Assembly (NCBI RefSeq): GCF_001550065.1
Contig: NZ_LRUB01000029.1
Span: 84,039 to 148,038, forward strand
DNA length: 64,000 nucleotides
Direction: 5' to 3'
Origin: Kordiimonas lipolytica
GTDB taxonomy: Bacteria > Pseudomonadota > Alphaproteobacteria > Sphingomonadales > Kordiimonadaceae
Of the stretch, positions 47,487 to 62,829 are shown in pieces (position 1 is the stretch's first letter; every line of letters starts with the position of its first letter). A program made the position numbers and the translations under genes. The notes under the pieces are model-generated. The model was given only the letters and a program-made list of their open reading frames with translations, was not told the DNA's origin and did no database searches.

Positions 47487-47491
47487 CTTCT

Positions 47492-47737
47492 TTACCCACG
47501 CCACTTCTCGCGGCTGACGCCCTTCAGCTTTTCAACCGTGCGCAAGCCGCCAAGCCCCAGCATGGACAGAAGCACCGTCACCAACGTCTCTGACCCCGAA
47601 AGCGTGGGCGGGGCGGGCATGTCGGGAAAGAAGGCAAGGCGAAGCCACGCCAGAATATCCGCGCCCATGAAATGCCACGCCAGCGCAAGCCCACACACCC
47701 AGCCAATGACTATAGCGAAACGCCGAATAGGGTGCAA
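47492..47737 (-). CDS. Holin-like membrane protein (3TM, GTA type)
   Basis: A small protein (81 residues from TTG 47737) with hydrophobic segments FAIVIGWVCGLALAWHFM and TLVTVLLSMLGLGGL, ending with GLGGLRTVEKLKGVSR. That end is the signature of the 3TM holin family linked to gene-transfer-agent and phage release. The frame is open to a TTG at 47788, but that stretch contains a palindromic operator and promoter-like elements (47743-47771). I therefore place the start at TTG 47737, one nt after a conserved ATAG that recurs at 61045-61048. No Shine-Dalgarno is visible, so it may be leaderless. The start is uncertain, the family fairly sure. Confidence 0.66.
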   Translation of the reverse strand: MHPIRRFAIVIGWVCGLALAWHFMGADILAWLRLAFFPDMPAPPTLSGSETLVTVLLSMLGLGGLRTVEKLKGVSREKWRG

Positions 47738-47742
47738 GCTAT

Positions 47743-47771
47743 TTTTTACGATTTTCGTAATTTTTAGCCAA
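47743..47771 (-). promoter_or_regulatory. Promoter and 15-bp operator of the holin cassette
   Basis: On the minus strand, TTGGCT (47771-47766), a 17-nt spacer and TAAAAA (47748-47743) form a weak promoter. The spacer and start of the -10 are covered by the palindrome TTACGA-TTT-TCGTAA at 47746-47760 (plus-strand reading). The same palindrome and the flanking CTAAAAATTACGA recur at 61051-61071. A repressor bound here would block RNA polymerase directly. Confidence 0.6.
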
Positions 47772-47797
47772 GAGCTACCAGAGCCCAAACATCCGCA

Positions 47798-48799
47798 CTA
47801 TTCAGCCTTGATCTCAGCCCCACTCACGTCAAACCGCTTGATGCCGGTGCGCTTGCCCGTGTCGTCATAAATGAACCGCACTTCATGCGCACCACTGCCG
47901 TCCATACCCGGTGTGCCGTCCAGCTTGAAGTAGCGCTGCCCGGCGCGCTGGCCAGATGGCAGGTAGCTGCGTTCAATCACTGGCATGTCACCGAACGGTT
48001 CGCCGGTTTCCGTTTTCACGTCCACCCGGTGCGGGCGGCCGAAACGGTCAAAATTGCTGTAGCGGATATCTGCAAAGCCAGAGGGGAAATTCTTCGGCTT
48101 GCCATCTGCGTCAAACACCTGCTCAGACAGGAAGTTGCCCTGCGCGTCAAAATGGAAGCGCACCTCGGCAAAGCCGTTTTCGCCGTTCATCAGCGTGCCA
48201 TCCGGCGCCTGGTTCTGGCGGTAGGTGGCGAAGTCATTGCCGTCGAAGGCGAAGAAGGCCATGGGAAAACCGTTATGTTCCGCAACCTGCTCGCCAGCCG
48301 CATCGAAGCGGATCTCATGCACCCGACGACCTTTGCGGTCCCGCGTGACCATCAGCTTGGCATAGCCGCCCACGTTCACCGGCTGGCCGTCCGGCCCCAG
48401 CGTGATCTTGGTGGTCCAATAGCCATGGCCCGTGCATACATAGCGCACTTCCCAAACGCCGTTTGAATTCACCACGCGCTCACCCGCTGCGTTTTCGAAC
48501 CATTCGGTAATCAGCGTATCCGTTTTACGCCGCACCAAGGCATGGGCGCCATAGTCGCCATGCGGGCTGGGTTTGCCGCCGTGAAAGAAGGTTACCTTTT
48601 CAAGGTAGCCGTTTTCATAATCAAGGAAATAGCTGTCCATCACCCGCGCTTCCTCATCCGTCAGCGGATAGACGGGGCGGGGGGCGCGCTCGGTGTGGTC
48701 ACGGTTCCAGTGAAGGTAATAACCGTCCTCCGCAGGCGCCTGAGACGCGTGCGCAACTGGCGCCAGTACAAATGCCAGCGCGATCAATAGTCCTCGCAT
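47798..48799 (-). CDS. Exported protein with repeated FD-x-G motifs
   Basis: A 333-residue secreted or periplasmic protein. A signal peptide (MRGLLIALAFVLAPVAHAS) is followed by four to five loosely repeated units of about 40-50 residues. Each has the form NGxxEVRY...DxxGxxxxxxxFDxxGxxV (for example NGFAEVRFHFDAQGN, then VFDADGKP; and SGFADIRYSNFDRFGR). Such WG/YD-like repeats build beta-structures on the cell surface in many bacteria. ATG 48799 was chosen because AGGG lies 6 nt upstream; an ATG 6 nt earlier is possible. No partner or substrate is indicated. Confidence 0.72.
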   Translation of the reverse strand: MRGLLIALAFVLAPVAHASQAPAEDGYYLHWNRDHTERAPRPVYPLTDEEARVMDSYFLDYENGYLEKVTFFHGGKPSPHGDYGAHALVRRKTDTLITEWFENAAGERVVNSNGVWEVRYVCTGHGYWTTKITLGPDGQPVNVGGYAKLMVTRDRKGRRVHEIRFDAAGEQVAEHNGFPMAFFAFDGNDFATYRQNQAPDGTLMNGENGFAEVRFHFDAQGNFLSEQVFDADGKPKNFPSGFADIRYSNFDRFGRPHRVDVKTETGEPFGDMPVIERSYLPSGQRAGQRYFKLDGTPGMDGSGAHEVRFIYDDTGKRTGIKRFDVSGAEIKAE

Positions 48800-48897
48800 A
48801 ATCATCCCTAATCTTTTTGTCGGGTTTTGGCGGACTAAAGCCGAAATGCGGGATGCGCTCAAGTCAAAAACGCGTCAGGGGCGGGCTTCTAAACGAA

Positions 48898-48921
48898 AGG
48901 CAGACGGAAACCCGCCTGCCT
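48898..48921 (-). terminator. Probable terminator after the 939-residue gene
   Basis: AGGCAG / CTGCCT arms with an inner CGG / CCG lie 26-49 nt after the stop at 48947. The T run on the minus strand is interrupted (TTTCGTTT), so efficiency may be moderate. Confidence 0.55.
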
Positions 48922-48946
48922 CCCGATATGCTCTGGCATGTTTCCC

Positions 48947-51766
48947 TTAGAAGAACTGAACCGGGCCGCCTGCCTGCTGGCGGTATTTCAGCACCGACAC
49001 CGGCAGTTCCACGCCGGGGGCGGCGCTTGCAAAACGGATCAGCGCATCAAAGAAAGACACTGTCACGTCGCTCGCGACATAATTGCCGCCGTAGGTTGGG
49101 TTGTTCCAGGGCGTCAGGCCTTTGGTATAAAGCGCGACCTTGGCCGCCAGCTGGTCCTTCGTCAGGCCTTTGGTGGTCACGATCTGGCCCAGGGCGCCGA
49201 AGGCGTTCGCCAGCTTGCCGGGCATCTCCTGCAGGTTCTGGAAGGTCTTGACCACCTGCGCGGCGTTCGCGGGGCTGGCGGAGATATCATTGGCCATATC
49301 CTGAATCTGGAAGAAGCCGGCGTTCAGGAACTTGTTCACCTGCTGCTCTGGCTGCAGCGCGGTTTCCCAATCGGCCCCGAACAACTGGCCCATGTAGGCG
49401 CGCAGATATTTATGGTTCGCCAGCAGCGCCTTGGCCGCGCAGTCCACAGCGACTGCATACTGGGCGTTCATGGCCGTGCAGAAGGCATCCGCGCTGGATT
49501 GATCGAACGACAGCAGCACCTCGAACTCCTCGCCTGGGCCATTCGCCTTGCCGTAATCAATCATGGCTTGCGCGCGATCCTGAGGGACAAGCTTGATGCC
49601 CACAAGACGGGTCAGATAGCTTTGCATCTCTGCCGCCGTGATCTCACCCTTCTCCGCGTCGCCGCCCTCCATGGAGGTCAGAGTGAACTTCATACCGTCA
49701 GTGTTTTCATCTGCCGCGCGGTCCATCGCGTAAGTGGACGCCGCGCTGATATCGAAAGTGCGGGTACCCCACCAACTTTTCTTCACCCGCGTGACATCGG
49801 CTGTGGCCACCATCTGGATACCGGACGGCAGGCGCACCACGGAAACACCCGACTGGGCGGTGAGCGCGCTGTTGAAATCCATATTCAGGAAACCAATGGC
49901 CGCCGTGTCTGTGCGGGTGTGCTGCCACAGGCCTTTGAGCGACCCTTCAAGGAAGGTCACCCCGTCTGGCAGCGTGGCCATGCTTGGGTTCAGCCAGCCA
50001 CGGACCGTGGCGTGCGGCCGGGCCAGAAGCGCATTATATTCCACCGCCGCGCCCGCAAGCGTATTGGTGCCGTCTGCCGCCGTGGGACTGAACTGGAACT
50101 TGCCAAGCCCGGTCACGAGCGACTTGTTCTCTGTCTGCCGCGCGATGGAGATGGCCAGCAGCTCGGAAGAATCGTCAGAGATATAGTCCGTCACCTTCTG
50201 CAGCTGGCCGCGGATATCTTCAATCACGCCCAGAACCTTGTCGGCGAAATTGTTGATGTCCTTCAAATGCAGCAGCTTGGCGATTTCCGCCTGCACCTTG
50301 GTGTCCAGGCTATTGAGGGCGCCAGTCACCTTGGAGATCAGCTCCTGCTGCGCTTCGGTGACCGCAGTGTCCACCTTTGATAGCTGGTCGTTGATTTCCG
50401 TCCCCGCGCGGGAGACCAGCTCTGTCTTGATCTGCTCTGCAAGGGCTGCCAGGTCCTTGTTCTGGCCAAGCGGCGTGCTCTTGAAAAGCCCGAGCACGTC
50501 ATCGGCCTTGTCGCCGATGAAAGTGCCGATGTCGGTGCCGATGTCGCTCACGGTCCAGCCCTCGGGCTTGCCCAGAAGCTTGCCCAGAAGCGTGTTGAAA
50601 TCCGTGTCCGCCGCCAGCTTGGCCAGGATGGTCTTTTCAATATATTGGCCGGGCAGAAGGGTATTGAGCTTGTCTTCAAGGGCGAGCCCCTTGTTGACCA
50701 CAGCCTCAACCTCGTCCAGGCCCTTGCCCACATCGCCAAGACCGTTGCGGATTTCCGTCAACACACCCTGGCCAAGCGCGGCAATACCCACAGACAGGCC
50801 GAAGGTGAAGCCTGCTGTCTTGACGCTGCTTTCTTCCGAATTCAGCTCCACGATCAGCGAGGCACCTTCGCGCGTCACACCCAGGGTAACCTGCTTGGCA
50901 TTCACCAGGCTGGCGCTGATGCCGAACTTCACATTGCCCACTTTAAAGGGAATGGTGGCCGCAATGTTGCCCGCCGCAGACATATCGACACCACGCTCAA
51001 GCGTGATGGTCTCAAGCGACACATAGCCGTCAGAAAGCCCTATGGCGCTGCGCGTGGCCTCAAAGTCGGTCACATCGAAGCCGATCTGGGTCAGCCCCGC
51101 CGTCATGGCCAAAAGCATGGGCACCGCCGCGTCATTGGCGGCATCCACCTTGAAGCCGAAATCAACCGATTCCATGTAGGAAAACTTGGCCGACGCCCCA
51201 AGGCTGAAGACCGAAAAACTGGCCTGCGCTTCCGCGCCCACGCCGATACGGCCCTGTGCTGTCAGGTGGAAGCTGGTGCCGGGGATGCTATCGGGTGCCG
51301 CGGGTGTGTCTGCGGCGTCAACCACAAAGGCCATGCTGGCCGAGGCGCTCATGTCCAGCGCGAAGGTGGCGAGCTTGACAGTAGCCGGCAGCTCTTTTGA
51401 AAAGTTCCCCACATTCCATTCGAACGTGCGTGCTTCAAGGCTGCCTTCCGCCACCACGCGCACGGGCTTGAACTTGTCTGTGATGTTCTGGATATCCGCC
51501 AGCGGTTTTGCGAATTCCTGCTCTGCCTTGTCTGTGAGTTCAGAGCCAATGGTGGCTTCAAGCTTGGCCTTGATGGCCGCCGCGTCGCCAGAGATGGCAG
51601 TAACGCCGGAGGAGACAGCCTTGACCACGTCAAACAGCGGTTCGGCCGCCACGCCCACAGCGGGGGCCAGCTTGCCCGCGATCAGCCAGGGGTTGCCGTA
51701 TGATTTCTGCCAGACCTCAGTTGGTGCGGCGGCGGGGGCGGTTCCTTGTTCATCTGGCGGGGTCAT
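48947..51766 (-). CDS. Large unknown alanine-rich protein
   Basis: A 939-residue protein, one of the largest non-repeat proteins of the window. No signal peptide is seen. Residues 1-30 are an Ala/Pro/Glu linker. Residues about 100-310 are beta-rich with alternating small residues (ALDMSASASMAFVVDAAD, GRIGVGAEAQASFSVFSLGASAKFSYMESVDFGFKVD). Residues about 330-540 are amphipathic helices and coiled coil (EIRNGLGDVGKGLDEVEAVVNKGL, EINDQLSKVDTAVTEAQQEL). The C-terminal 380 residues are mixed and end in LKYRQQAGGPVQFF. AGGAG lies 8 nt before ATG 51766. It is divergent from the permease at 52123. I do not recognise the family. Confidence 0.72.
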   Translation of the reverse strand: MTPPDEQGTAPAAAPTEVWQKSYGNPWLIAGKLAPAVGVAAEPLFDVVKAVSSGVTAISGDAAAIKAKLEATIGSELTDKAEQEFAKPLADIQNITDKFKPVRVVAEGSLEARTFEWNVGNFSKELPATVKLATFALDMSASASMAFVVDAADTPAAPDSIPGTSFHLTAQGRIGVGAEAQASFSVFSLGASAKFSYMESVDFGFKVDAANDAAVPMLLAMTAGLTQIGFDVTDFEATRSAIGLSDGYVSLETITLERGVDMSAAGNIAATIPFKVGNVKFGISASLVNAKQVTLGVTREGASLIVELNSEESSVKTAGFTFGLSVGIAALGQGVLTEIRNGLGDVGKGLDEVEAVVNKGLALEDKLNTLLPGQYIEKTILAKLAADTDFNTLLGKLLGKPEGWTVSDIGTDIGTFIGDKADDVLGLFKSTPLGQNKDLAALAEQIKTELVSRAGTEINDQLSKVDTAVTEAQQELISKVTGALNSLDTKVQAEIAKLLHLKDINNFADKVLGVIEDIRGQLQKVTDYISDDSSELLAISIARQTENKSLVTGLGKFQFSPTAADGTNTLAGAAVEYNALLARPHATVRGWLNPSMATLPDGVTFLEGSLKGLWQHTRTDTAAIGFLNMDFNSALTAQSGVSVVRLPSGIQMVATADVTRVKKSWWGTRTFDISAASTYAMDRAADENTDGMKFTLTSMEGGDAEKGEITAAEMQSYLTRLVGIKLVPQDRAQAMIDYGKANGPGEEFEVLLSFDQSSADAFCTAMNAQYAVAVDCAAKALLANHKYLRAYMGQLFGADWETALQPEQQVNKFLNAGFFQIQDMANDISASPANAAQVVKTFQNLQEMPGKLANAFGALGQIVTTKGLTKDQLAAKVALYTKGLTPWNNPTYGGNYVASDVTVSFFDALIRFASAAPGVELPVSVLKYRQQAGGPVQFF

Positions 51767-52122
51767 GATTTCAGCTCCTGGATGATTGCACGGCGAGGCC
51801 GCCCATAGGCGGGCGGCCATTTGAACGCATTACCTCTATTGAATGGCAGGTGCCGGAACCCGGCAAAACGGAACTGCAAGAGACGGCGGAACGCCAAAAG
51901 CCCCCGCCAAAACCCTATGTGAAACCCGCCCCCAACGGCCTGGCTGGCGCCCAAACAAAGGCGGCGCACCAAGCTGTTCCTGGGTTGTTATATTACCATT
52001 TTTACTAGCACAAAATGCCCAAAAAGTCGAGCGTCATTGGTGTGCCGGCACCGGCCAATGGTTGTATTTTCCTGTTGCCAAAAATGTTACTTTATATCTA
52101 AAGTTCGCGTATCGGGGACGGG
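51767..52122. promoter_or_regulatory. Divergent intergenic region (unknown large protein / permease)
   Basis: These 356 nt contain no gene with a plausible start. The right third (51985-52100) is AT-rich and suits a promoter for the permease. A GC-rich imperfect palindrome around 52040-52061 (TGCCGGCA core) is the only symmetric element I see. Confidence 0.4.
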
Positions 52123-54567
52123 ATGGGGGAGTTACCGTTGAAAAAATCATTCAGCTTTTTCAAGGCAAGCATGCGCCTGTGGCGGCGGCACCTTGTGGGT
52201 GTATTGATTGCTGTGCTGGGGCTGGCGGGCGCTTTCGCGGTCACAATCACCGCCGCGCTCTATATCTATGACGGCATGCGCTCTGACGCCTGGCTCCCGG
52301 GCGCGGAGCGGCTGTACCGGGTGAATGAACAGTGGCTGATGAACGGCAAGGAAGGCGTGTTCTCATTATCCGCCGCCTCAGGGTTGGGCGTTGCCCCCCT
52401 GGTGCAGGAAAACACGCCCGGCATTGAAGCCGCCACACGGCTTTACCCCCTGCAGGCAGAGATCACCACCGGGCGAGGCGACACATTCGAGGCAGACGCC
52501 ATGATGGCGGAACCCAACATGGCGGACCTGTTGGCCTTCCCGGTTCTGGCTGGTGACCTGGCGCAAGCGCTCAGCGACCCATCGGGCCTTGTGCTGTCCG
52601 CCGGGCAGGCGGAAAAACTGTTCGGCGGTGACGCCATGGGCCAGACCGTGACGCTCACATTCAAGGAGCAGTCGTTTGACTATAAGGTGGGTGCGGTGCT
52701 GAAGCGCCTGCCGCCCAACAGCCAGTTCAAGCTTGACCTTCTGATCCCCTGGAACGAGGAACGCATGAAGCAGGGCGGCGGGCTTGGCACCGGGGCGGAG
52801 GCCTATACCTATGTCCGGGCCGCACCGGGCGCGGACGGCGCGGCGATTTCCGACCATATCGCCACCCATATCGCGACCATGCGCCCGCCCCACGGCAACA
52901 TCACCTTCAAGATGAACGCCAGCCCGCTGATCGGGGCGCAATATTTTTCAAAAGCCTACAATGACATGAAGCCCGCCACATCCACGCGCATGAGCCGGAT
53001 TGTGCTGATCATGTCGGCGGTGCTTCTGGTTACCGCCTGCTTCAACTTCGTGCATATGTTCACGTCGCTGAATTTGGGGCGTGGGCGCGAGGTGGCCATC
53101 CGGCGCATTGCGGGCGCCAGCCGCGCGCACCTGATGGGCGTATTCCTTGTGGAAGCAGGCGTGGTGGCGCTGGCCGCATACGGCCTTGGTATCCTGATCG
53201 CGGCTGACCTGGCCACGTCTGCCGACATGCTGCTGAACGGTGGGGTGACAATATTTGGGCCCGGCCGCGCACCGCTGTTGGCCTCAGGCAGCCTGGCCGC
53301 GCTTGTGGTCGCGCTGCTGACCGCCGCCGCCATGATCGCGCAGCTGAGCCGGATGAAACCGCAGACACTGTTGCACAACAGCCAGCGCGCCGTCACCGGC
53401 GGGCGCGGCTGGATCAAGAGCGTGCTTGTGGGGCTTCAGGCGCTGGCGCTTGTGGGCACGCTGATCGCCGCCGGGCAGATTTACCACCAGTTTGACCATT
53501 ATCTGACACTGGACCGCGGCATGCGGGTGACCGGCGTGATGATCGTGCCCGCCCCGTTTGACGAGAGCCAGTCCGCCCGCTTCAAGAACGACTTCCGCAA
53601 GGAGCTTGCCTCACTTCCCGGCGTGAAAACGGTCAATGAAATTCACACCCCGCCGTTCGACGGCAACCTGATGATGTTCAACCTGAAGGCGGAAGGCATG
53701 GACGGGCCTGTGCAGTCTGTGATGAATGATGTGGGGCCAAGCTATTTCGAAAGCTTCGACATCACCCCCATCGCAGTGGTGGACGAGGATTTCACAGGCC
53801 TCAAGAATGTTGTCGCGCTGCCGGAAGCCAGCGTGAAGGCCTATGGGTTCGAAAGCCCGGAGGCCGCGCTGAACCAGACACTGACCAGTATTTACAAGGG
53901 CAGGAATGGCGACCCGGACCAGACAACAGACTACCGCATCATGGCGGTGATCCCCGACCTCAAGGACAGCGGATACCGCCACAAGATGCCGGTGGTTTAC
54001 GGCATGACAGAGCTGTTCGGCAGCTGGTACACCCAGTTCGTGGTTCTGGCAGACCGGGACGACCCGGCGCTGAAGCAGGCAGTGAAGGACCTGTGGCTGA
54101 AGCACTTCCCGGATTTCGAGGAAGAAGCCACCATGCACTGGTTCTCTGACGCCATCGCGAACCGCTACCGCAAAACGGAAAACATGGCCAGCGCCGTGCT
54201 TGCCATGGCCGCTTTCTGCCTGCTGTTGTGCCTTGCGGGGCTTTACGGCATGGCCAGCCACTATACCGCCACCAAGGCGCGGGAGATTGCGCTTCGGCGC
54301 GTTCTGGGCGCCGGCAAGCGAGACGTAAGCCAGCTGTTCCTGAGGAAAATGCTGCTGCCTGTAGCCATCGGCGGGGTGCTGTCGCTTGTGCCCACATGGT
54401 GGCTGATGATGCGCTATCTTGAAAACCATGCGGAACAGGCCGTCCTGCCCATGGGTTATTATCCGCTGGTACTGGCGGGGATCATGCTGGTGTCTGCGCT
54501 GATGCTGATGGGCCATGTGCGACGGGTGCTGAAGCTTCGGCCCGCCAGCGTGCTCTATCACGAATGA
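52123..54567 (+). CDS. ABC transporter permease, MacB/FtsX type
   Basis: An 814-residue membrane protein with two FtsX-type permease units. A first helix (VGVLIAVLGLAGAFAVTITAALYIY) is followed by a large periplasmic MacB-PCD-like domain (about 50-275). Helices near 285, 340 and 385 follow, then a second anchor (VLVGLQALALVGTLIAAGQIY), a second periplasmic domain and three final helices. Motifs REVAIRRIAGASRAHLMGVFLVEA and REIALRRVLGAGKRDVSQLFLRKM are the coupling segments of this family. A TTG at 52138 with GGGGGAG upstream is an alternative start. No ATPase gene adjoins it, so its partner must be encoded elsewhere. Confidence 0.85.
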   Translation: MGELPLKKSFSFFKASMRLWRRHLVGVLIAVLGLAGAFAVTITAALYIYDGMRSDAWLPGAERLYRVNEQWLMNGKEGVFSLSAASGLGVAPLVQENTPGIEAATRLYPLQAEITTGRGDTFEADAMMAEPNMADLLAFPVLAGDLAQALSDPSGLVLSAGQAEKLFGGDAMGQTVTLTFKEQSFDYKVGAVLKRLPPNSQFKLDLLIPWNEERMKQGGGLGTGAEAYTYVRAAPGADGAAISDHIATHIATMRPPHGNITFKMNASPLIGAQYFSKAYNDMKPATSTRMSRIVLIMSAVLLVTACFNFVHMFTSLNLGRGREVAIRRIAGASRAHLMGVFLVEAGVVALAAYGLGILIAADLATSADMLLNGGVTIFGPGRAPLLASGSLAALVVALLTAAAMIAQLSRMKPQTLLHNSQRAVTGGRGWIKSVLVGLQALALVGTLIAAGQIYHQFDHYLTLDRGMRVTGVMIVPAPFDESQSARFKNDFRKELASLPGVKTVNEIHTPPFDGNLMMFNLKAEGMDGPVQSVMNDVGPSYFESFDITPIAVVDEDFTGLKNVVALPEASVKAYGFESPEAALNQTLTSIYKGRNGDPDQTTDYRIMAVIPDLKDSGYRHKMPVVYGMTELFGSWYTQFVVLADRDDPALKQAVKDLWLKHFPDFEEEATMHWFSDAIANRYRKTENMASAVLAMAAFCLLLCLAGLYGMASHYTATKAREIALRRVLGAGKRDVSQLFLRKMLLPVAIGGVLSLVPTWWLMMRYLENHAEQAVLPMGYYPLVLAGIMLVSALMLMGHVRRVLKLRPASVLYHE

Positions 54568-54662
54568 CGGTGCTGAAGCGGCGGCCTCACTCTGTGCCAT
54601 TTCGACGCGCCATGCCGAATGCGGTTGGGCGGCACCGCACGTGGGCGTAGGGTGGCCCTGAG

Positions 54663-55127
54663 ATGGATTACACACTGGTCAAGACCCTGCATATCCTGAG
54701 CGCCACGGTGCTGTTCGGCACCGGACTTGGCATCGCCTTCTTTATGGTGCGCAGCCACTTCACAGATGACATCCAGCAGAAGCTTTATGCCGCCCGAAAC
54801 ACCGTGCTGGCGGACATGGTTTTCACCCTGCCCGCGGTGATCCTGCAGCCCGTCACGGGCGCCTGGCTGGTTGTGAACGGCGGATATGATTGGAACGCGC
54901 CCTGGCTTATGGCCACCTACGGCCTTTATATCCTTGCGGGCGCTTGCTGGCTGCCGGTGGTTTGGATTCAGATCAGGCTGAAGCGCATGCTGCAACTGGC
55001 TGCCCAAACTGGCGCGCCCCCGCCCGAGCGCTATCACACCTTGTTCCGCCTTTGGTTCATCCTGGGCTGGCCAGCCTTCATCGGCCTTGTGCTGGTCTTC
55101 TATCTGATGGTAGCCAAAGCGCTATGA
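54663..55127 (+). CDS. DUF2269 family membrane protein
   Basis: A 154-residue protein with four hydrophobic helices. The DUF2269 pattern is evident: YTLVKTLHILSATVLFGTGLGIAFFM at the N-terminus, then ITG-like TGAWLVVNGGY and WILGWPAF-like FILGWPAFIGLVLVFYLMVAKAL at the end. The family is found in inner membranes and has no settled function. Its stop overlaps the next start as ATGA. Confidence 0.85.
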   Translation: MDYTLVKTLHILSATVLFGTGLGIAFFMVRSHFTDDIQQKLYAARNTVLADMVFTLPAVILQPVTGAWLVVNGGYDWNAPWLMATYGLYILAGACWLPVVWIQIRLKRMLQLAAQTGAPPPERYHTLFRLWFILGWPAFIGLVLVFYLMVAKAL

Positions 55128-55777
55128 CAGAGCTGAAACCCATATCGCCCCACGCACCGACATTTAAGGCCATCTTTGGCGCGGCGTGGCACGCGCTGCC
55201 ACCGCCCTTCAAAAAGCATTATAGGAACCGACCCTATAGCCAGGAGCGCTTCCGGGTGAGCGGCAGCATGAGCGTGACCACCTCCCCCCTACTGCGCCTG
55301 TTCGCGCCACTGTCGCGATTGATGGGCGGCATCCCGCTGGTGAACGCAACAGACATCCCCGTAACCGTGGATTTCGAAAGCGAGGCCACAAGCCGCGCCT
55401 TCCATTTCAACCGGCTGTTTCACCTGCCGGGCGGGAAGCCCTGGCGCTTCCATTCGCGCATGGTGCCAACAGGGGGAAGCCGATTGGTGGAGGAAATGAA
55501 ATTCCGCCTTGGCTGGCGCGTGCGTTTCGCGTTTGAGGGCGGCCGGGTGAAGCTGCACCATGACGGCTATGCCCTGTGTGCGTTCGGGCGCCATATCCCG
55601 CTGCCACTTGGCTGGCTTATCGGCAGCGTGGAGGCCGAGGAATGGATCACGGGCGACGACCGGTTCGATATGTGCGTGCATATCAACCACCCGCTTTTCG
55701 GACAGGTTTACGAGTATCGCGGCAGCTTCGACACCAGCGCCATTCCCCCACTTGAGGACGACACAGACCATGGCTAA
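55124..55777 (+). CDS. DUF4166 family protein
   Basis: A 217-residue protein whose ATG overlaps the DUF2269 stop. The sequence has the DUF4166 plan: FKAIFGAAWHALPPPFKKHY near the start, then beta-rich stretches VTVDFESEATSRAFHFNRLF, WRFHSRMVPTGGSRLVEEMKFRLGWRVRF and PLPLGWLIGSVEAEEWI. DUF4166 occurs either fused or next to saccharopine-dehydrogenase-like proteins, exactly as here (its end overlaps the next gene by 8 nt). The biochemical role is unknown. Confidence 0.82.
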   Translation: MTELKPISPHAPTFKAIFGAAWHALPPPFKKHYRNRPYSQERFRVSGSMSVTTSPLLRLFAPLSRLMGGIPLVNATDIPVTVDFESEATSRAFHFNRLFHLPGGKPWRFHSRMVPTGGSRLVEEMKFRLGWRVRFAFEGGRVKLHHDGYALCAFGRHIPLPLGWLIGSVEAEEWITGDDRFDMCVHINHPLFGQVYEYRGSFDTSAIPPLEDDTDHG

Positions 55778-56891
55778 GCGCGTGCTGATCATTGGCGGCT
55801 ACGGCAATTTTGGCCGCTTCATCGCAAAAAGGCTGGGTGAAAACCCGGCGCTGCACTTGATCATTGCGGGCAGGCATGAAGCCAAGGCGCGCTTCATGGC
55901 GAAAGCGATTGAAGCAAAGGGCAGCGCTGAGGGCGTGCGGCTGGATATCACGGAAGATCTGGACACGGCGCTTGAGGCGCTGAAGCCGGACATTGTCATC
56001 CACACGTCCGGCCCCTTTCAGGGACAGGGATATGACGTGGCGCGCGCCTGCATCCGCGCCGGTTGCCACTATATTGATCTGGCCGACGGACGCGAGTTTG
56101 TAAGCGGTATCGATGCGCTGGACGCGGAGGCGAAGGCTGCGGGCGTAAGTTTGATCAGCGGAGCGAGTTCGGTACCCGCACTTTCATCCGCCGTTATGGA
56201 CGTCTGCATGCCAGAATTTGAGCGCCTTGAGCATATCGATTACGGCATCACCACCGCCCAGGCCACCACGCGCGGGCTTGCCACCACCGCCGCTATATTG
56301 GGCTATACTGGCAAGGCGTTTGGCCGGCTTGAGGGCGGTAAGATGAAACCCGCCTACGGCTGGCAGGGCCTGCATGCCCACAGCTTCCCGGGTGTGGGGA
56401 CGCGCTATCTTTCCAACTGCGACATCCCTGACCTCAGCCTGTTCCCCACGCGCTATCCGGGCCTGAAGACCCAGCGCTTTTACGCCGGGCTTGAGCTGCC
56501 GTTCCTGCATATCGGGCTTTGGGGGCTTTCGTGGCTGGTGCGCGCGCGACTGGTGCGCAGCCTGCGGCCGTGGGCCGGCACGCTTTTGAGGGCATCCTTC
56601 CTGTTTGACATGCTCGGGACTGACACCAGCGCCTTTTACCTGCGGGCGCGGGGCAAGGCCGAGGATGGGCAGGCAAAAGAACTGCGGTTTGACCTGACGG
56701 CTCGGTCGGGCGATGGCCCCTTCATCCCCTGCATGCCCGCCATCATTCTGGCGAACCGGCTCGCGAACCGCTTCACCGCAAGCACGGCCATGCCAACCGG
56801 CGCAACGGCCTGCATGGGGCTGATCACCCTTGATGAGTACCAAAGCGCGCTTTCCGATATGGATATCAACTGGAATTGGACGGGGATTTGA
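55770..56891 (+). CDS. Saccharopine dehydrogenase-like NAD(P)-binding protein
   Basis: A 373-residue Rossmann-fold protein. The nucleotide-binding start is RVLIIGGYGNFGRFIAKRL, and further family motifs are DIVIHTSGPFQGQGYDVARACIRAGCHYIDLADGREFV and SGASSVPALSSAVMD. The C-terminal half includes hydrophobic helices (HIGLWGLSWLVRARLV). Family members include lysine-pathway and trans-acting enoyl-reductase types. The context with DUF4166 and DUF2269 points to an uncharacterised membrane-associated pathway rather than lysine metabolism. Confidence 0.85.
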   Translation: MAKRVLIIGGYGNFGRFIAKRLGENPALHLIIAGRHEAKARFMAKAIEAKGSAEGVRLDITEDLDTALEALKPDIVIHTSGPFQGQGYDVARACIRAGCHYIDLADGREFVSGIDALDAEAKAAGVSLISGASSVPALSSAVMDVCMPEFERLEHIDYGITTAQATTRGLATTAAILGYTGKAFGRLEGGKMKPAYGWQGLHAHSFPGVGTRYLSNCDIPDLSLFPTRYPGLKTQRFYAGLELPFLHIGLWGLSWLVRARLVRSLRPWAGTLLRASFLFDMLGTDTSAFYLRARGKAEDGQAKELRFDLTARSGDGPFIPCMPAIILANRLANRFTASTAMPTGATACMGLITLDEYQSALSDMDINWNWTGI

Positions 56892-56990
56892 GCGCCCTAC
56901 ATCTAGGCGAAATCCTGCATATGAGTGCGGCCCTCAAGCCTGCCTGAGGGCTGAACACACGGCCGATTGCCTTCGCGGTCTGTTATTTCC

Positions 56991-57044
56991 GGGCCAATCC
57001 CGCGCCAATTTCGGGCCAATCCCGGGGACATATCGGGGACATAT
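56991..57044. repeat. Paired short direct repeats
   Basis: GGGCCAATCCCG occurs at 56991-57002 and 57013-57024, and GGGGACATAT at 57024-57033 and 57035-57044. The GGGGACATATTACGTATTT context is similar to intergenic repeats that accompany REP-associated transposases, but no transposase is present. Confidence 0.5.
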
Positions 57045-57172
57045 TACGTATTTGATTACCTGAGTCCCTTGATAGATTCAGCGGGACGTAAGGTGCTGCG
57101 GGTCGCGCGCGTTGTAACCACCCTACTTGGCGGAAATCAGGATCACCCTGAAAACGGCATCAGCTTGAAAAT

Positions 57173-57230
57173 CAGCGTTGGCTTGAAAATCAGCACAAGT
57201 TCAAAAAACAGCGTTGGCTTGAAAATCAGC
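57173..57230. repeat. Two identical 22-bp direct repeats 36 bp apart
   Basis: The 22-nt sequence at 57173-57194 (starts CAGCGTTGG, ends AATCAGC) recurs exactly at 57209-57230. Partial copies lie before and after, so 57161-57236 looks like a decayed tandem array. The unit spacing is 36 nt. An open frame runs through it on the plus strand (56967-57326) but has no ribosome site and low-complexity sequence. Confidence 0.6.
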
Positions 57231-57254
57231 GTTGGTTTGACCGGAAAAAGAAAA

Positions 57255-57289
57255 AGCTGGCCCCAGGTTCAGGATCCTGGAGGCCAGCT
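57255..57289. other. Long near-perfect stem-loop
   Basis: AGCTGGCC-CCAGG pairs with CCTGG-A-GGCCAGCT, 13 bp with one bulged A and an 8-nt loop. No T run follows directly, so it is not a standard terminator. It may be an RNA element or end a transcript from the repeat region. The rest of the 650-nt gap 56892-57541 shows no gene that I can support. Confidence 0.5.
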
Positions 57290-57541
57290 ACATTCGGTCA
57301 CTATGGCTATCCCTACCCTGCAATAGCAAGCGGGGTCGGCGCAAGTGTTTTTTTGTTAAAATTCAAGCTTTTTCTTAAAACATTGACGTACAGAAGGCGG
57401 ACAGAAAGCAATGCATTTCCGACAACCACTTATTCTGCCATTAAAATTTCAGACGGCGACACTTTTGACGACTAATATCAGGGTCTTTTCCTGATCGATT
57501 TTTTTTTGTACTGTGCTGTCAGTTGGGCTTGGGAGAGCATC

Positions 57542-57658
57542 ATGAAACACTCTTGCACAAATGCGCGACCGGCGCATGGCTTTTTGGTACTGGTCGGGGT
57601 GATCACATTTTTCACGCTAATCGGTGGCGCTTTTGTCTGGAGCCTTGGTGCCGCTTAG
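57542..57658 (+). CDS. Small single-pass membrane peptide (38 residues)
   Basis: ATG at 57542 has GGGAGAG 5 nt upstream and a TAG at 57656-57658. The peptide has 13 polar or basic residues (MKHSCTNARPAHG) and then one continuous hydrophobic helix (FLVLVGVITFFTLIGGAFVW). It has the look of a real small membrane protein: good ribosome site, typical composition and a clean helix. No family is recognised. It ends 22 nt before the stop of the convergent PAS gene. Confidence 0.5.
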   Translation: MKHSCTNARPAHGFLVLVGVITFFTLIGGAFVWSLGAA

Positions 57659-57679
57659 CCGGGCATCGCAGCTATAGAG

Positions 57680-58237
57680 CTATGATGGCACGGCCACGTC
57701 AACAGGAACACCAAAGCCGACATCGACAAATTCGCTGTGCAATATCTTGACAGACACGTACCGCCCAGGCTGAAGGTTGGCTGGCATCAGGTCTGTTTTA
57801 CTGGCTGATACCCCCACCATATACCGGCAATCACCGTCTTCAGATACCATCGGTAGCGACAGTGTGGTGATCTCATGTGCTTTGCCGTTCTGGAAGGTTG
57901 CTTCCCGCTTGAACCGATGTCCACAGGGATGATTGACAACCGCCGCAGCGGTGTCCCAAACGAATGACCGCGTCTCCGGGGGACATAAGTCCAGATAATT
58001 GGCACCCGTCATCGGCATGGGGGAAATCGCGTCCAATGCCGTGCCCGACAGTCGAACAAGGAGGTTCTCCGGCCCCTGTTGTTCGATCAGAAAGACATGC
58101 GGCAGGATATCCCGGATCAGCACAGGGTTGAGACTCGAGCGCTTCGGCACACCGCCCGCCTCTTCCTTGAGGCGAAGCCAGTAGGCCAGCATGACTTCAA
58201 ACTGCCCGGCAGCGTTATGAGATGAAGGTATGTCCAT
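57680..58237 (-). CDS. PAS_5-type PAS domain protein
   Basis: A 185-residue protein of the alphaproteobacterial PAS_5 group. Characteristic stretches are LAYWLRLKEEAGGVPKRSSLNPVLIRDILPHVFLIEQQ, VRLSGTALDAISPMPMTGANYLDL and a late HEITTLSLPMVSEDGDCRYMVGV. Members are stand-alone PAS sensors of unknown output. ATG 58237 gives the usual start. The frame is open to a TTG at 58297, which would add 20 residues. Confidence 0.78.
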   Translation of the reverse strand: MDIPSSHNAAGQFEVMLAYWLRLKEEAGGVPKRSSLNPVLIRDILPHVFLIEQQGPENLLVRLSGTALDAISPMPMTGANYLDLCPPETRSFVWDTAAAVVNHPCGHRFKREATFQNGKAHEITTLSLPMVSEDGDCRYMVGVSASKTDLMPANLQPGRYVSVKILHSEFVDVGFGVPVDVAVPS

Positions 58238-58306
58238 GCCTTCACTGTTCGCATGGAGGGTTAAAAACTGGTGAAGAAACGAAGAATTCAGCGCCAAATG
58301 GCGTTT

Positions 58307-59062
58307 TTACCAGTCCACGTAGCCGCAATAATATTTTTCGTCAGACCGTTTGGCCCTGTAGCTAAGTCTCTGCGGCCTGCCTTCACCGCGCGGCCGAAGG
58401 ATCTGATCGACCATAAAAATAAGCCGTTGCCCCACCTGCCCGGTAACCGAATCCAGCTTGACCACATATTCGGTAAGCGGCTTCTGCTTGCTTTTTGGCT
58501 CATAGATGCCGCTCCAGGACTGGCGCTCGGCATCATAGCGCATGGTCGCGCGCTCCACAGTCGTGGTGATATTGCAGCTCATCTCGTTCGCGAGCGCATC
58601 GAGGTAAGCCTTATAGTTGTCAAGCGTAGGATCCGCGCAGAATTTGATGGCTGGCTTCGCCTGCCTGCGGATCATCTGCTCTTCCGTGCTGCTGATCTTC
58701 TTCTGAAACTTCAGCACCCTGACATGGCGCTCGATATCCTTCACTTCCGGTGCGACACAAATGGGGTGGTCCTGCCATTCTTCCTGGGTGCGATCCTTAT
58801 ACATCCTGAGTAGCATGTCGTTGACACGCTTGTCGCTTTTCTGGACGGCTACCCGGCTGATAAAAAAGCTGCAGGACATGGTATATTGTTCGTCAACATA
58901 ATCGCAGTCGGCCGACAAGGTCGCCGGATAGGCGCTGCGCTGCAGCTTCAGATCCTTCAGTTCAGGAACTGAAGACCCACCACCCTCAGCGGCGGGTTGC
59001 TGTGCAATTGCGGCCGCAAAAGAACTAAAAAGAAAGGCCGAGAAAATGAGAATCTTCAGCAT
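58307..59062 (-). CDS. Exported protein of unknown function
   Basis: A 251-residue protein with a signal peptide (MLKILIFSAFLFSSFAAAIAQQ). The mature part has seven or so cysteines (ADCDYVDEQYTMSCSFF, PICVAPE, KFCADP, MSCNI, YYCGYVDW), which would suit disulfides in the periplasm. The start is set by the signal peptide. There is no family match and no obvious partner. Confidence 0.72.
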   Translation of the reverse strand: MLKILIFSAFLFSSFAAAIAQQPAAEGGGSSVPELKDLKLQRSAYPATLSADCDYVDEQYTMSCSFFISRVAVQKSDKRVNDMLLRMYKDRTQEEWQDHPICVAPEVKDIERHVRVLKFQKKISSTEEQMIRRQAKPAIKFCADPTLDNYKAYLDALANEMSCNITTTVERATMRYDAERQSWSGIYEPKSKQKPLTEYVVKLDSVTGQVGQRLIFMVDQILRPRGEGRPQRLSYRAKRSDEKYYCGYVDW

Positions 59063-59177
59063 ATTTTCTACCGGTTTGAAATGAATCCAGTACCCGCAAC
59101 CACATGAAGGCCACACTATACACAGCAAGGCGGGGTGACGCTACGGCCTATTTGGAGACCGAGCACTGGAGCATTCG

Positions 59178-59753
59178 TCAGCGCCGCCTCCCCTGCAATT
59201 CCACGAGCCCCGCGAGCCACAATAGCGCTGCCTCATAGCGACGTTTCAGCGTCCAGCGCGACCATGACACGTCAAGGCTGCGCCGCACCTTGGCCCAGGG
59301 GATGCGCGCACTGCGCTCCCCATCCTGATGCCAGGCCGCCCAAAAAAGAAGCCGCCTGTCTTCGATGTCCGGTAACAAGAGAAGCAGGTCCAGCGTCGGC
59401 TGCATCTGGTCAATCTCGATGGAGGTGATCCGCACGCGCCTGCGGGCCTGAAAACTGGTCAGACTTTCACGGGCATATGTGCCGGGTTCCGCTGCAGCCT
59501 CCGGCCACAAGGCGCCACGCATGCGCAGGAAGCCTGCTTCGCGGTCCGGCAGTCTGCGCAGCGTCCAGCAGGCAGAAACAAAGCGCAACTCAAGCCTTGG
59601 GGAGATATCCTCACGCTTGGGTGCCGCCACGACGCTGGCACTGGCACCAGCACAGGCACAGACCGCTTCTTCATAAACCTCAAGGGCTGCAGCCCGCAGT
59701 GACCGCTGCGCGATGGCCGGTTTCAAATGGTGCGGCCTTGTTTTCATGGTCAT
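59178..59753 (-). CDS. DUF6362-like phage-type protein
   Basis: A 191-residue protein. Its C-terminal half (ITSIEIDQMQPTLDLLLLLPDIEDRRLLFWAAWHQDG, then IPWAKVRRSLDVSWSRWTLKRRYEAALLWLAGLVEL) fits the DUF6362 pattern, a small helical, possibly HTH-like domain common in alphaproteobacterial prophages. Its ATG (59753) overlaps the DUF1376 gene stop as ATGA and has AGGAGGAT upstream, so the two are coupled. The N-terminal half is Ala/Arg-rich. The role is unknown; DNA binding is plausible from the basic helix-turn-helix-like end. Confidence 0.65.
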   Translation of the reverse strand: MTMKTRPHHLKPAIAQRSLRAAALEVYEEAVCACAGASASVVAAPKREDISPRLELRFVSACWTLRRLPDREAGFLRMRGALWPEAAAEPGTYARESLTSFQARRRVRITSIEIDQMQPTLDLLLLLPDIEDRRLLFWAAWHQDGERSARIPWAKVRRSLDVSWSRWTLKRRYEAALLWLAGLVELQGRRR

Positions 59754-60778
59754 ATATCCTCCTGTGGTGACGATGTCTTTTTTCCAGCCTGCGCAGGGGA
59801 TGGAAGCACCCATCCCCACCGCGTGCCATATTCGGAAACGATTTCTTTTGGAATCAATGGGTTGGGCCTGAGGGTCGGATCGCACCCAAGCCCGCTGGGC
59901 AGAAACACCGGATGGTCCGGCCCGATGCGCCAGTGACGCGCAAGATAGTCACCGCGGAACCGGCTGGATGCGTCCCCCAGGAACAGACGCCAGTCTGCGG
60001 GCAATGAGGCATCGAAATGCCTTTTAGGCGGCGTTGGGGGAAAGGCTTCATTATGGGCGTCGCCAGCCTTTCGGGCCTTCAGCCGCTTGTCGCGCGCTTC
60101 CAGAATGGCCGCGCCATAGTAAGCCAGCGACGCCGGCGCACTGCCGGAACGGGCCATTTGCCTTTTATAGAGGCGCTCAATCGTTGGCAGGATATCCTGC
60201 CCAAGGTCAGCCCCCGCCGACAGCCATTTGACCAGTTCGCTCCCATCCAAAGCCAGACTATCAAGCCCGGCGGCGGCAGCGACTTCGGCCACTGGAATAT
60301 CTGCAGGGATATCTGCCGCGATACCTGCACCCTGGGCCTCTTCTGCCTTTTGTTTTGGTGTTTGGATTCTGGTTTTGGTTGGTAGCTTGTTCGCTTTAGC
60401 GACAGGCTGGCGGTCGCTAGCGGCTTTCTCGGGCTTGGCACGGGCTGCCTTCGCGCGTCCCCCCTTTGCACCGTTCGCCCGGTTCCGGGCCACCCGGGTT
60501 TCCACCCCTTTATAAACCTCCGTCAGCTTCTTTTGACGCCAGAGGCCACCCTCAACCGTGAAGAAGTCTTTGAGCACGGGCCTGATCCGCCGCCAGCGCG
60601 GCAGCGTCACGCCAACGGTGCGCGCCAGAAACCGGTCATCATCCTTCAGGGCACAGCCGCGTGTCCGCCATGCGCACATCAGCAAAAGAAGGTAAGCGCC
60701 GTGTTCTTCTGCTGTCAGATGGCGCGTATCGGCCAGATAGGCATCTGTGAAAATGGGAAGGGCAGGAAATTCAGCCAC
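59750..60778 (-). CDS. DUF1376 (YdaU-like) phage replication-type protein
   Basis: A 342-residue protein whose first 100 residues are a DUF1376 domain (PALPIFTDAYLADTRHLTAEEHGAYLLLLMCAWR, then LARTVGVTLPRWRRIRPVLKDFF). This domain is common in phage replication regions and resembles primosomal N-terminal folds. A basic, lysine/alanine-rich linker (about 105-150) leads to a C-terminal helical part with FLGDASSRFRGDYLARHW. The start is GTG 60778 with GGGGAGGG upstream, overlapping the end of the small ORF 60771-61040. It is the main gene of the operon that runs divergently from the repressor. Confidence 0.78.
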   Translation of the reverse strand: MAEFPALPIFTDAYLADTRHLTAEEHGAYLLLLMCAWRTRGCALKDDDRFLARTVGVTLPRWRRIRPVLKDFFTVEGGLWRQKKLTEVYKGVETRVARNRANGAKGGRAKAARAKPEKAASDRQPVAKANKLPTKTRIQTPKQKAEEAQGAGIAADIPADIPVAEVAAAAGLDSLALDGSELVKWLSAGADLGQDILPTIERLYKRQMARSGSAPASLAYYGAAILEARDKRLKARKAGDAHNEAFPPTPPKRHFDASLPADWRLFLGDASSRFRGDYLARHWRIGPDHPVFLPSGLGCDPTLRPNPLIPKEIVSEYGTRWGWVLPSPAQAGKKTSSPQEDI

Positions 60779-61040
60779 TGAGCCCTCCCCAAAGGGACAG
60801 GAAAAATGGGCACACAAGGATGCCCAGGATGGCAGCTGCCTCCTGAACCACCATGAAGCAGGTGACTGGACCCTTCGGCTTTTCCTGCCCGCGCAGGTCG
60901 CCCACCGACACTTCACAGCGACCATTCCGTTGCGGAAGGCCTCTTTCCGTTTGCTGACAGCGTCTGACCGTTTGCTGACGGCGTCTGGCCGGACCCAGCC
61001 GGTGAGACGCGCCTCTTCTTATGTATATCGACTCATTCAT
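60771..61040 (-). CDS. Candidate small leaderless gene before DUF1376 gene
   Basis: An 89-codon frame from ATG 61040 to a stop that overlaps the GTG of the DUF1376 gene by 8 nt. The N-terminal half is very basic and contains a 21-bp in-frame tandem duplication (60947-60988; RRRQQTV then RRCQQTE). The C-terminal third holds a hydrophobic stretch (EAAAILGILVCPFFLSLW). There is no Shine-Dalgarno, but the ATG sits just after the promoter and operator (61046-61075), as expected for a leaderless start. The frame-keeping repeat and the tidy overlap favour a real gene. The unusual composition argues against it. Confidence 0.35.
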   Translation of the reverse strand: MNESIYIRRGASHRLGPARRRQQTVRRCQQTERGLPQRNGRCEVSVGDLRGQEKPKGPVTCFMVVQEAAAILGILVCPFFLSLWGGLSG

Positions 61041-61045
61041 GAGCC

Positions 61046-61075
61046 TATAATTACGATCTTCGTAATTTTTAGCAA
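61046..61075 (-). promoter_or_regulatory. Operator-covered promoter for the DUF1376 operon
   Basis: On the minus strand TTGCTA (61075-61070) is followed by AT-rich sequence ending TAATTATAG (61053-61045). The palindrome TTACGA-TCT-TCGTAA at 61051-61065, extended to AATTACGA...TCGTAATT at 61049-61067, covers the spacer and -10. Sequence and geometry match the holin-cassette promoter at 47743-47771. Confidence 0.6.
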
Positions 61076-61095
61076 GCCAGCATCGCAAAAAACAC

Positions 61096-61123
61096 GTGAC
61101 ATTTTTTACAAAATTCGTAATAT
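61096..61123 (+). promoter_or_regulatory. Operator-covered promoter of the repressor gene
   Basis: GTGACA (61096-61101), a 16-nt spacer and TAATAT (61118-61123) make a fair promoter. A 15-bp near-palindrome, TTACAA-AAT-TCGTAA at 61106-61120, overlaps the -10. Transcription would start about 4-5 nt before the ATG at 61134, giving a nearly leaderless mRNA. The position fits autoregulation. Confidence 0.55.
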
Positions 61124-61133
61124 TGTTCTTGAC

Positions 61134-61847
61134 ATGCCAAAACAAGACTGGATACGAGCCGCCCTCAAAGACCGGGGGTATAAGCTGAAGGATGCTGCGG
61201 AGGCCCTTGGGGTGCCTGCGCCGCGGGTGACCGATATTCTCAAGGGCGCACGCGGGGTGCAGGCGCACGAGATCCTACCGCTCAGCCAGCTGCTGGGCAT
61301 GAATGCACCATCGCTTCTGGAAAGCCTGAAAGCGGGCGAACCTACCGTGGTTGACGACGGCAATGATGGCCGGTTGCCGCTTCTTGGCAGCCTGACAGGA
61401 ACAGGCACCGTCGCCCCCCTGCCCGATGACATGACTTTCTCGAGCGTTCCCCTGCCGCCTGACGCAGGCACACCGGAAGGCCTCTATTGTTATGTGATGG
61501 GCGACACTTCAATGGCGCGTGAAATCCCCGCAGGGAGCCTGGTGATTGCCGCCGATCCCAAACGGCACTATGCGCCGGTGGCGCCGGGTGCGCTGCTGTT
61601 GCTGGACCTGGGCGCAGGGCGCAGGGCGCTCAGGCAGTATACCAAGACCGAGAGCGGCGAAGACTGGCTGGTGCCACTACCGGACACGCCCAATCCCGAT
61701 TTCGCCAGTTGGCGCTTCAGCCTGCTGTCAGACCTGATGCCAGGCGGCGATATGGTAGGCGCCGGCCAGGAGATCGTGCGCATCACAGATGTGCTGGCCG
61801 CTGTCATGTGGGTTCACCAGCGCCGCTCGCCACCGAAGGCCTCCTGA
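61134..61847 (+). CDS. HTH/S24-type phage repressor
   Basis: A 237-residue repressor. Residues 1-65 form an XRE-type helix-turn-helix (DWIRAALKDRGYKLKDAAEALGVPAPRVTDILKG). Residues about 80-225 resemble a LexA/CI S24 domain: LPLLGSLTG, YCYVMGDTSMAREIPAGSLVIAAD with Ser126 in the place of the catalytic serine, then GALLLLDLGAGRRALRQYT. Where active members have a catalytic lysine this protein has L166/R167. The usual Ala-Gly or Cys-Gly cleavage site is TGTG. It may therefore not self-cleave. ATG 61134 follows the promoter by a few nt; the frame is open far upstream (60747) but through the control region. It very likely binds the flanking palindromes. Confidence 0.82.
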   Translation: MPKQDWIRAALKDRGYKLKDAAEALGVPAPRVTDILKGARGVQAHEILPLSQLLGMNAPSLLESLKAGEPTVVDDGNDGRLPLLGSLTGTGTVAPLPDDMTFSSVPLPPDAGTPEGLYCYVMGDTSMAREIPAGSLVIAADPKRHYAPVAPGALLLLDLGAGRRALRQYTKTESGEDWLVPLPDTPNPDFASWRFSLLSDLMPGGDMVGAGQEIVRITDVLAAVMWVHQRRSPPKAS

Positions 61848-61930
61848 CCACCCTTCTCCTTTGGATGTCAGCTTTCCCGTGCGCCCAGCTCCGCCCCGGA
61901 CAGGACGCATTCTGATCATCTGCGCCAGAA

Positions 61931-61982
61931 TTTCGTATTTTGTAATTTTAGCATTGACATATAATTACGATATTCGTAACTT
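61931..61982 (+). promoter_or_regulatory. Third operator site with promoter after repressor gene
   Basis: TTGACA (61954-61959) is followed 17 nt later by TAACTT (61977-61982). The palindrome TTACGA-TAT-TCGTAA at 61965-61979 covers the spacer and -10. A weaker half-match (TTTCGTATTTTGTAA) lies at 61931-61945. Transcription would run rightwards into 62000-62787, where only a low-confidence ORF is visible. Confidence 0.55.
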
Positions 61983-62015
61983 AATTGCACCAACACCGAT
62001 AAATGCGGTGGACGA

Positions 62016-62306
62016 GTGAACCGATATCCATACCAGGGCCACCGTGGGCCAAATGGGCATCGTCACAAATCCCCGGACCTGGCGCGCACCTCCTCCCCCC
62101 CAAATGCGCCACCCGCGGTTGCCATTCGGCCCCAGGGCCTGTGCATCGCCTACTGTGCTTATCGGCAGTTGCCCCCGAACGGGCCGCGCGCTCAAGCCGG
62201 CTATGGGGTTTTACTGCAAGGCATCTCCCCCGCCTGTCCGCGCTGCCCCCGGGCGTGGTGGGCGGAGATGCCGATGCGACCCGCCTCCTGCCCCTCCGGC
62301 AAATAA
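62016..62306 (+). CDS. Candidate small ORF downstream of the third operator
   Basis: A 96-codon frame from GTG 62016, with GGTGGA a few nt upstream and about 27 nt after the expected transcription start. The peptide is rich in Pro, Arg and Cys (LCIAYCAYRQLPP, PACPRCPRAWWAEMP), and about three quarters of its third codon positions are G or C, as in real genes of this region. No family is recognised. Overlapping frames of similar length exist, so this is only a candidate. The RNA itself could be the product. Confidence 0.25.
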   Translation: MNRYPYQGHRGPNGHRHKSPDLARTSSPPNAPPAVAIRPQGLCIAYCAYRQLPPNGPRAQAGYGVLLQGISPACPRCPRAWWAEMPMRPASCPSGK

Positions 62307-62493
62307 AATCAGCTCCCGCATTCCCAAAAATCCGTGCCCGCTCGTTATAGCATCAGACACTTGCCGGTCAGGCAGCGGCTTCCCCCTTAGCCGCACCCGA
62401 AGGCGCTACGATTCAATTTGCTGCATATATCCTCCCACCCCTTGGACGCAGCAAAAGGACCAGCCCTTCGATATTGCCTCGGGTACTGACCGA

Positions 62494-62537
62494 TGGCCGG
62501 AGCGCAGAACACCCATCCAAGCCCTGCGTTCCGGCCA
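62494..62537. other. 14-bp stem-loop
   Basis: TGGCCGGA-G-CGCAG pairs with CTGCG-T-TCCGGCCA (one G-T pair) around a 16-nt loop. There is no T run. This could be part of a structured transcript from the operator-controlled promoter at 61954. Confidence 0.45.
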
Positions 62538-62685
62538 CCTCCTCTTCATTGACTGTAAAATATCAACTTTGGCGCGTGTCACTAATCAGTGATCCCTGCA
62601 CGAAATTCGATACAAACGGGCTGTCGCGAGCTATAAGATAAAGATGTGCCAGCCCGGTTACCCCCATCAACTTGGCTGACACACA

Positions 62686-62783: not shown

Positions 62784-62787
62784 CAGG

Positions 62788-62826: not shown

Positions 62827-62829
62827 ACT

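Follow-up and report, generated by a model that had tools for sequence, protein, structure and literature searches.

Why does one palindrome recur around a phage-type repressor gene and then again, far away, beside a holin sequence among other genes? The question is raised by a stretch of 64,000 nt from Kordiimonas lipolytica (contig NZ_LRUB01000029.1, positions 84,039-148,038, forward strand), which as a whole is called the window here. The 15-bp palindrome TTACRANNNTCGTAA is found in the window as four exact copies (starting at 47746, 61051, 61106 and 61965) and nowhere else in it, with a chance expectation of 0.01 matches from shuffles; the coordinates given by the initial annotation for these four copies are exact. 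Relaxing the perfect palindrome by one or two mismatches brings up no additional site within the window. A looser pattern, TTACRANNNTYGTAA, also with up to two mismatches, adds two sites, at 61931-61945 and at 44757, the latter of which is taken as a chance match. The flank CTAAAAATTACGA, which had been claimed to be common to the 47746 and 61051 sites, is indeed shared by them. These sites are very probably operators of the repressor encoded at 61134, which would silence a domesticated element of the Kordiimonadaceae resembling a gene transfer agent (GTA), the particle genes of which have been deleted at the window locus. This wider element is the finding of interest. The putative operators, none of which is assigned to a strand, are as follows (TerS, small terminase).

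47746..47760: putative late operator, leftover of the particle operon; exact palindrome, the TerS promoter of relatives being alike
61051..61065: putative operator within the early promoter, from which the DUF1376 operon is read on the minus strand; exact palindrome
61106..61120: putative operator in the repressor's own promoter (plus strand); exact palindrome
61931..61945: weak, degenerate fifth putative operator, 34 bp before 61965, its pair partner; TTACRANNNTYGTAA match
61965..61979: putative operator in the promoter (plus strand) of a downstream structured RNA; exact palindrome

Three of the sites, 61051, 61106 and 61965, each occupy a -35/-10 spacer as judged by eye, and likewise by eye the site at 47746 stops 8 bp upstream of the -35 box TTGCAC. 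The 47746 copy had been described as covering the promoter-like region of a holin gene; it does stand beside a promoter, but upstream of the -35 box, so that the core promoter itself is not covered.

The gene in the middle of these sites encodes the repressor.

61134..61847, plus strand: repressor of 237 aa with a Cro/C1-type HTH and a degenerate S24-like C-terminal domain

Its N-terminal HTH is present (HTH_3, 23.2 bits against a cut-off of 23), and Peptidase_S24 is sub-threshold in the window protein (13.6 bits against a cut-off of 23.3); several homologues carry a precomputed PF00717 match. The protein also matches phrog_4 (transcriptional repressor). Ser126 is present in 28 of 31 aligned repressor rows, and none of the 31 has a Lys at residues 165-168, the position of the catalytic Lys being judged by eye. 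A search with the repressor matched 68 proteins, itself included, whose named hosts are Kordiimonas, Yunchengibacter, Eilatimonas or a metagenome-assembled alphaproteobacterium. As its dN/dS is 0.18 against G013 and likewise 0.18 against G011 (relatives are numbered G for genomes and L for loci), the window repressor is, by this measure, under constraint.

On the minus strand lies the early operon, which consists of three genes.

59750..60778, minus strand: early gene 1, DUF1376/primosomal-protein family (PF07120, 63.3 bits; phrog_9327)
59178..59753, minus strand: early gene 2, called F0, candidate late regulator or antiterminator (phrog_6836)
58307..59128, minus strand: early gene 3, conserved 273-aa protein (homologues 63-66% identical in G013 and G011)

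The match of the DUF1376 gene to primosomal PHROGs bears out the earlier description of this operon as replication-like. The F0 protein of L005 matches DUF6362 below the cut-off (28.8 against 31 bits), and the predicted fold of F0 weakly resembles sigma region 4 and AlpA; Foldseek found no significant match in the PDB or among viral models, and a profile search of the PDB gave nothing below E 0.15. F0 has a dN/dS of 0.11 against G013, synonymous sites being saturated against G011, and on this ratio it too is under constraint. Between the early and the late parts (47798-51820), genes for 354- and 957-aa proteins have no match in the compared loci, and this spacer therefore holds lineage-specific genes.

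The operators recur in relatives at corresponding positions. Twenty loci were compared, namely 19 fetched genome loci with a repressor and the window. A distal operator, -80 to -86 from the repressor start and with at most two mismatches to the strict motif, is present at 19 of the 20 (L019 being the sole miss), and a proximal one, at -25 to -52 with at most one mismatch, at 18, the two misses, L005 and L013, having sites with three differences. The downstream pair, 32-35 bp apart and each with at most two mismatches, is found at 13 of the 20, including the window. The late operator fits TTWCGWNNNWCGWAA by eye at all ten separated loci whose stretch includes TerS; the window, G011 and G013 fit it as well. 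Among compact loci, L011 has a late operator copy with one mismatch, and none was seen in L005, L013 and L019 (both by eye). Site positions in relatives are accordingly the repressor promoter, the early promoter, the downstream RNA promoter and the particle-operon promoter, and the repressor, upstream operators, downstream pair and late operator co-occur. A comparison of related genomes, which the initial annotation had called for, thus finds repressor and upstream operators kept together and supports both a phage-type repressor with its own operators and an operator common to the repressor region and a distant phage gene.

What that distant gene is becomes clear only from the intact element. 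At the window locus, the following features lie beside the 47746 operator.

47709..47737, minus strand: late promoter, with -35 TTGCAC (47732-47737), a 17-bp spacer and -10 TATAGT (47709-47714), by eye
47492..47707, minus strand: what remains of a 137-codon 3TM holin gene, codons 67-137 and the stop (phrog_3427)
46005..47486 (also given as 46005-47504), minus strand: gene for a variable 499-aa protein behind the holin, at the same place in relatives

The TerS promoter of relatives has the same operator and the same -35 as the late promoter of the window. It is followed there by TerS, the large terminase gene (TerL), portal, prohead protease and, if the stretch extends that far, capsid. Behind the capsid come tail genes, an M15 peptidase (matched in L062; L057 and L102 have similar frames by eye), then the holin and the variable protein. 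This late promoter lies about 2.5-8 kb from the repressor, and closer in four compact loci (L005, L011, L013 and L019). A terminator is predicted in 13 of the 14 late leaders with TerS behind (the miss being L003), and none stands out in the late leaders of the window and G011. At the window locus, everything from the TerS start to holin codon 66 is missing. Holins of intact relatives have 136-137 codons; that of the window is without its N-terminal 66 codons, the last 71 remaining right behind the -10 box, covers positions 80-139 of the 141 in the phrog_3427 profile and has no Pfam match. Compared with the relatives, the "holin cassette" is a deletion scar that joins the TerS promoter to the 3′ end of the holin gene.

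Similar losses are found elsewhere. In G010, TerS is fused to holin codons 64-137, a similar scar. The G010-type and window deletions end three codons apart in the holin (codons 64 and 67; L017 4648-5412 and window 47492-47707), and they are apparently independent events. G011 keeps the operator and late promoter and has no TerL or holin match in its genome. The metagenome-assembled G013 has a matching operator and promoter where one contig ends, and its full-length holin lies on a second contig; its TerL is without an inner stretch and changes frame. Errors in the G013 contigs are possible.

The scar could still be in use: a working dispersed lysis circuit would have the repressor control a short functional holin together with the 499-aa protein, and so release something else. 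The holin fragment is open and conserved, with 94% identity to the G013 holin over 70 codons and a dN/dS of 0.07, so that either the deletion was recent or the fragment is still used. G010 keeps a near-identical fragment after its own deletion, which hints at selection on the C-terminal part, and the late -10 box of the window is nearer to consensus than that of intact relatives. However, a conserved fragment is also expected after a recent deletion, 66 of the 137 holin residues are missing, and by eye there is neither a ribosome-binding site nor a clear start codon between the -10 box and the fragment. In intact relatives, moreover, the holin gene stands late in the operon without an operator of its own, 23-26 kb behind the late operator in G001, G002, G003 and G007. 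The pairing of holin and operator had been set beforehand as a test, and relatives that keep the repressor have no operator near their intact holins, which goes against a lysis cassette purposely placed under control in trans. We regard a working lysis circuit as unlikely. Of the dispersed, domesticated phage circuit first proposed, the control half remains, and its lysis cassette is replaced by a deletion scar. The 499-aa protein is only 19-32% identical to its counterparts in five relatives, at a fixed position behind the holin; its start resembles a peptidoglycan-binding repeat by eye, its structure model is of low confidence (pLDDT 69), and a homologue search gave only the protein itself among the best 7997 candidates. 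It is possibly a fast-evolving lysis or effector protein.

The complete element was surveyed in 29 genomes of the family of Kordiimonas marina (G001). Relatives of the repressor are present in 25 of these, the holin in 24 and an F0 match in 28. TerL is absent from G010, G011 and G065, all of which keep the repressor (G065 is without F0), and the repressor is absent from G044, G048, G089 and G100, all of which have TerL. The neighbours kdsA, kdsB and kpsC are on the stretch in the window, G001, G002, G003, G004, G005, G007, G010 and G065; kds/kps genes are near the element in 8 of the 13 relatives with a holin-side stretch fetched, and those in which they were unseen (G011, G012, G013, G044 and G058) have stretches that end early or, in G058, the holin on another contig. 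Four long proteins with RTX-type repeats (by eye) are encoded in the window at 32058-42109, adjoining flagellin and capsule genes. Particle genes of the element evolve under low dN/dS, 0.03-0.18 in six TerL and four portal comparisons and 0.19 for the capsid in one pair.

Structure matches were obtained with proteins of K. marina or K. aquimaris. In the PDB, the K. marina capsid is closest to RcGTA Rcc01687 (E 1.4e-85) and the portal to Rcc01684 (E 1e-92); the tail tube is closest to RcGTA Rcc01691 (E 7e-21). The tail terminator matches RcGTA Rcc01690 weakly (E 0.006), behind SPP1 gp17. For the tail tip the match is a PDB chain that bears the name Megatron protein, and TerL gave no match in the PDB.

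These data also bear on an ordinary temperate prophage that is decaying in this genome and was never domesticated. Phage-type modules are found throughout, and TerL is 53-56% identical to phage TerLs in the seven best records. In a tree of TerL sequences from the family (16 rows) and from viral loci (42 of the 80 fetched), the family rows group with 17 viral contigs and do not form one clade (at least three changes forced), being partly interleaved with them. Six viral contigs nest among the family TerLs; because four of the six (L114, L115, L116 and L119) carry the operator, late promoter, F0 or repressor, the nested contigs are probably the same element. One IMG/VR contig with the repressor likewise has F0, TerS and TerL. 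Against a prophage, TerL occurs in 26 of 29 species, and 24 of these have a single match (in G013 the one gene is in two pieces, and G105 has one full and two partial copies), its neighbours are similar in several genomes, dN/dS is low, and a search of 50,697 phage records gave no match to the repressor. Furthermore, a search for tyrosine integrases (PF00589) places none closer than 200 kb on the element's contig in any of the nine intact genomes checked, the nearest match being farther off or on a different contig; the G005 element begins 3.7 kb from a contig end. A decaying prophage is therefore quite improbable. A putative domesticated GTA-like element fits better than a mobile prophage, and in the window genome such an element has most likely decayed at this locus.

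Genome-wide, the strict palindrome TTACGWNNNWCGTAA has 26 listed places in the 14 genomes searched (our own count), by a pattern blind to the TTACGT...ACGTAA form of the palindrome. Twenty-three of these places, spread over nine genomes, are at the element, two of them probably being one place on overlapping G013 contigs. The looser pattern was no more frequent in the 14 genomes than a reversed-pattern control, so that the strict palindrome and its place alone carry information. That some other regulator, one of the host, binds the palindrome, its presence at phage genes being secondary, is very improbable, since only 3 of the 26 strict copies are off the element (G003, G009 and G012), whereas the other 23 are at it and copies keep fixed distances to the repressor gene. 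The stray copy in G012 (L060 7861) is near a comM-like gene by eye, and that in G003 (L058 4943) is beside a recombinase-like gene.

For a silenced GTA-like element, the following scheme is proposed. The repressor would bind the operators and, when bound, block the early, repressor and RNA promoters by filling their -35/-10 spacers. Once repression is lifted, the early operon would make the DUF1376 protein and F0, and F0 would let RNA polymerase through the terminator of the late leader, comparable to lambda Q and Caulobacter GafZ. In the window, the switch would be intact, and the late promoter would drive at most the truncated holin and the variable 499-aa protein. Lambda-type late control works with Q and tR′, and the compact loci, in which F0 adjoins the late promoter and a terminator follows, are like lambda Q/tR′ and Pseudomonas AlpA.

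Known GTAs resemble the element in part. RcGTA (Rhodogtaviriformidae; PMC9662315) is alike in that the capsid, portal and tail tube of the element match RcGTA structures best, and differs in that the element is without a GTA_TIM protein and its tail tip matches the Megatron chain. Indeed, the GTA_TIM tail protein PF13547 was found in none of the 29 family genomes, whereas the Caulobacter control was positive. In the Caulobacter crescentus GTA, as described in two reports (PMC9632790, PMC11150451), RogA, a LexA-like repressor reported to be without key catalytic residues, stands above the late regulators, a sigma-like antiterminator (GafY/GafZ system) works on the late promoter, and the particle cluster contains a terminator. 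A LexA-like repressor over a late regulator (a candidate one in the element) and a terminator (predicted in the element) are common to the two, and F0 may be the counterpart of the sigma-like antiterminator. The operators differ, being TTACGWNNNWCGTAA in the element and GGAA-N4-TTCC in Caulobacter; the late operon has an operator only in the element; the terminator is in the leader before TerS, and not behind the first gene as in Caulobacter; and the structured RNA is an extra of the element. RcGTA-like clusters in alphaproteobacteria have undergone repeated loss and pseudogenization in several lineages, according to PMC10883770; particle genes are lost here as well, but with the repressor, F0 and operators kept. 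Kogay et al. 2019 (PMC6821227) listed 132 RcGTA-like clusters in 207 Sphingomonadales genomes, and the accessible text of that paper does not name kordiimonads, which its genome lists may include. The open-access literature searched yielded no report of this element or of any Kordiimonadales gene transfer agent, and no relevant report on a Kordiimonas prophage or DUF6362.

We tentatively suggest, as a possibility somewhat short of even, that this is a new GTA of the Kordiimonadaceae, with an RcGTA-like head and a different tail tip, run by a repressor of its own together with a sigma4-like antiterminator and a structured RNA under that repressor's control. Its particle genes would have been lost in at least three lineages (window, G010 and G011) while repressor, F0 and operators stayed, and the regulatory half may have gained a host role, because these parts outlast the particle genes and are under selection where measurable. 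If so, one more bacterial family has domesticated phage particle systems, and the element offers a compact, readable control circuit with operators that any genome can be scanned for. Lineages that lost the particle genes and kept the switch provide a natural test of GTA-type regulators without particles.

The last part of the circuit is the RNA behind the repressor.

62148..62251, plus strand: conserved structured RNA element (covariation; covariance-model match 55 bits, the window being a training row)

A hairpin loop, CGCGC-N3-AGC, lies around 62185-62200, behind the 61965 promoter and its counterparts. Among 18 sequences, 90.7% of stem cells pair, and double changes number 17 against 4.4 in shuffles, with a marked fall once the partner is shifted; only three pairs show a double change, which is no more than in shuffles. 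The covariance model matches 19 of the 25 repressor loci searched, 18 of the 19 being training rows and L015 the single independent match (E 3.5e-8); it does not match at the four compact loci or in G058 and G065. Rfam has no match up to E 1 in window positions 61900-62700, and the RNA, with its covarying stem, may represent a new family. Some relatives have, downstream of the repressor, frames that can be read as small basic proteins with HHWxxARRLS (like RHHWRLARRLS; L004 10992-11480, L005 11289-11705, L007 5041-5463 and L112 4456-4959), some of them following the RNA and a GGAG-type ribosome site; no clear counterpart was seen in the window. The structured RNA may be a leader of these proteins. 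Directly behind the RNA in the window is an insertion element (62787-64000), IS3-like by eye, with two transposase-like frames at 62830-63929 and similar ends near 62787 and 64000.
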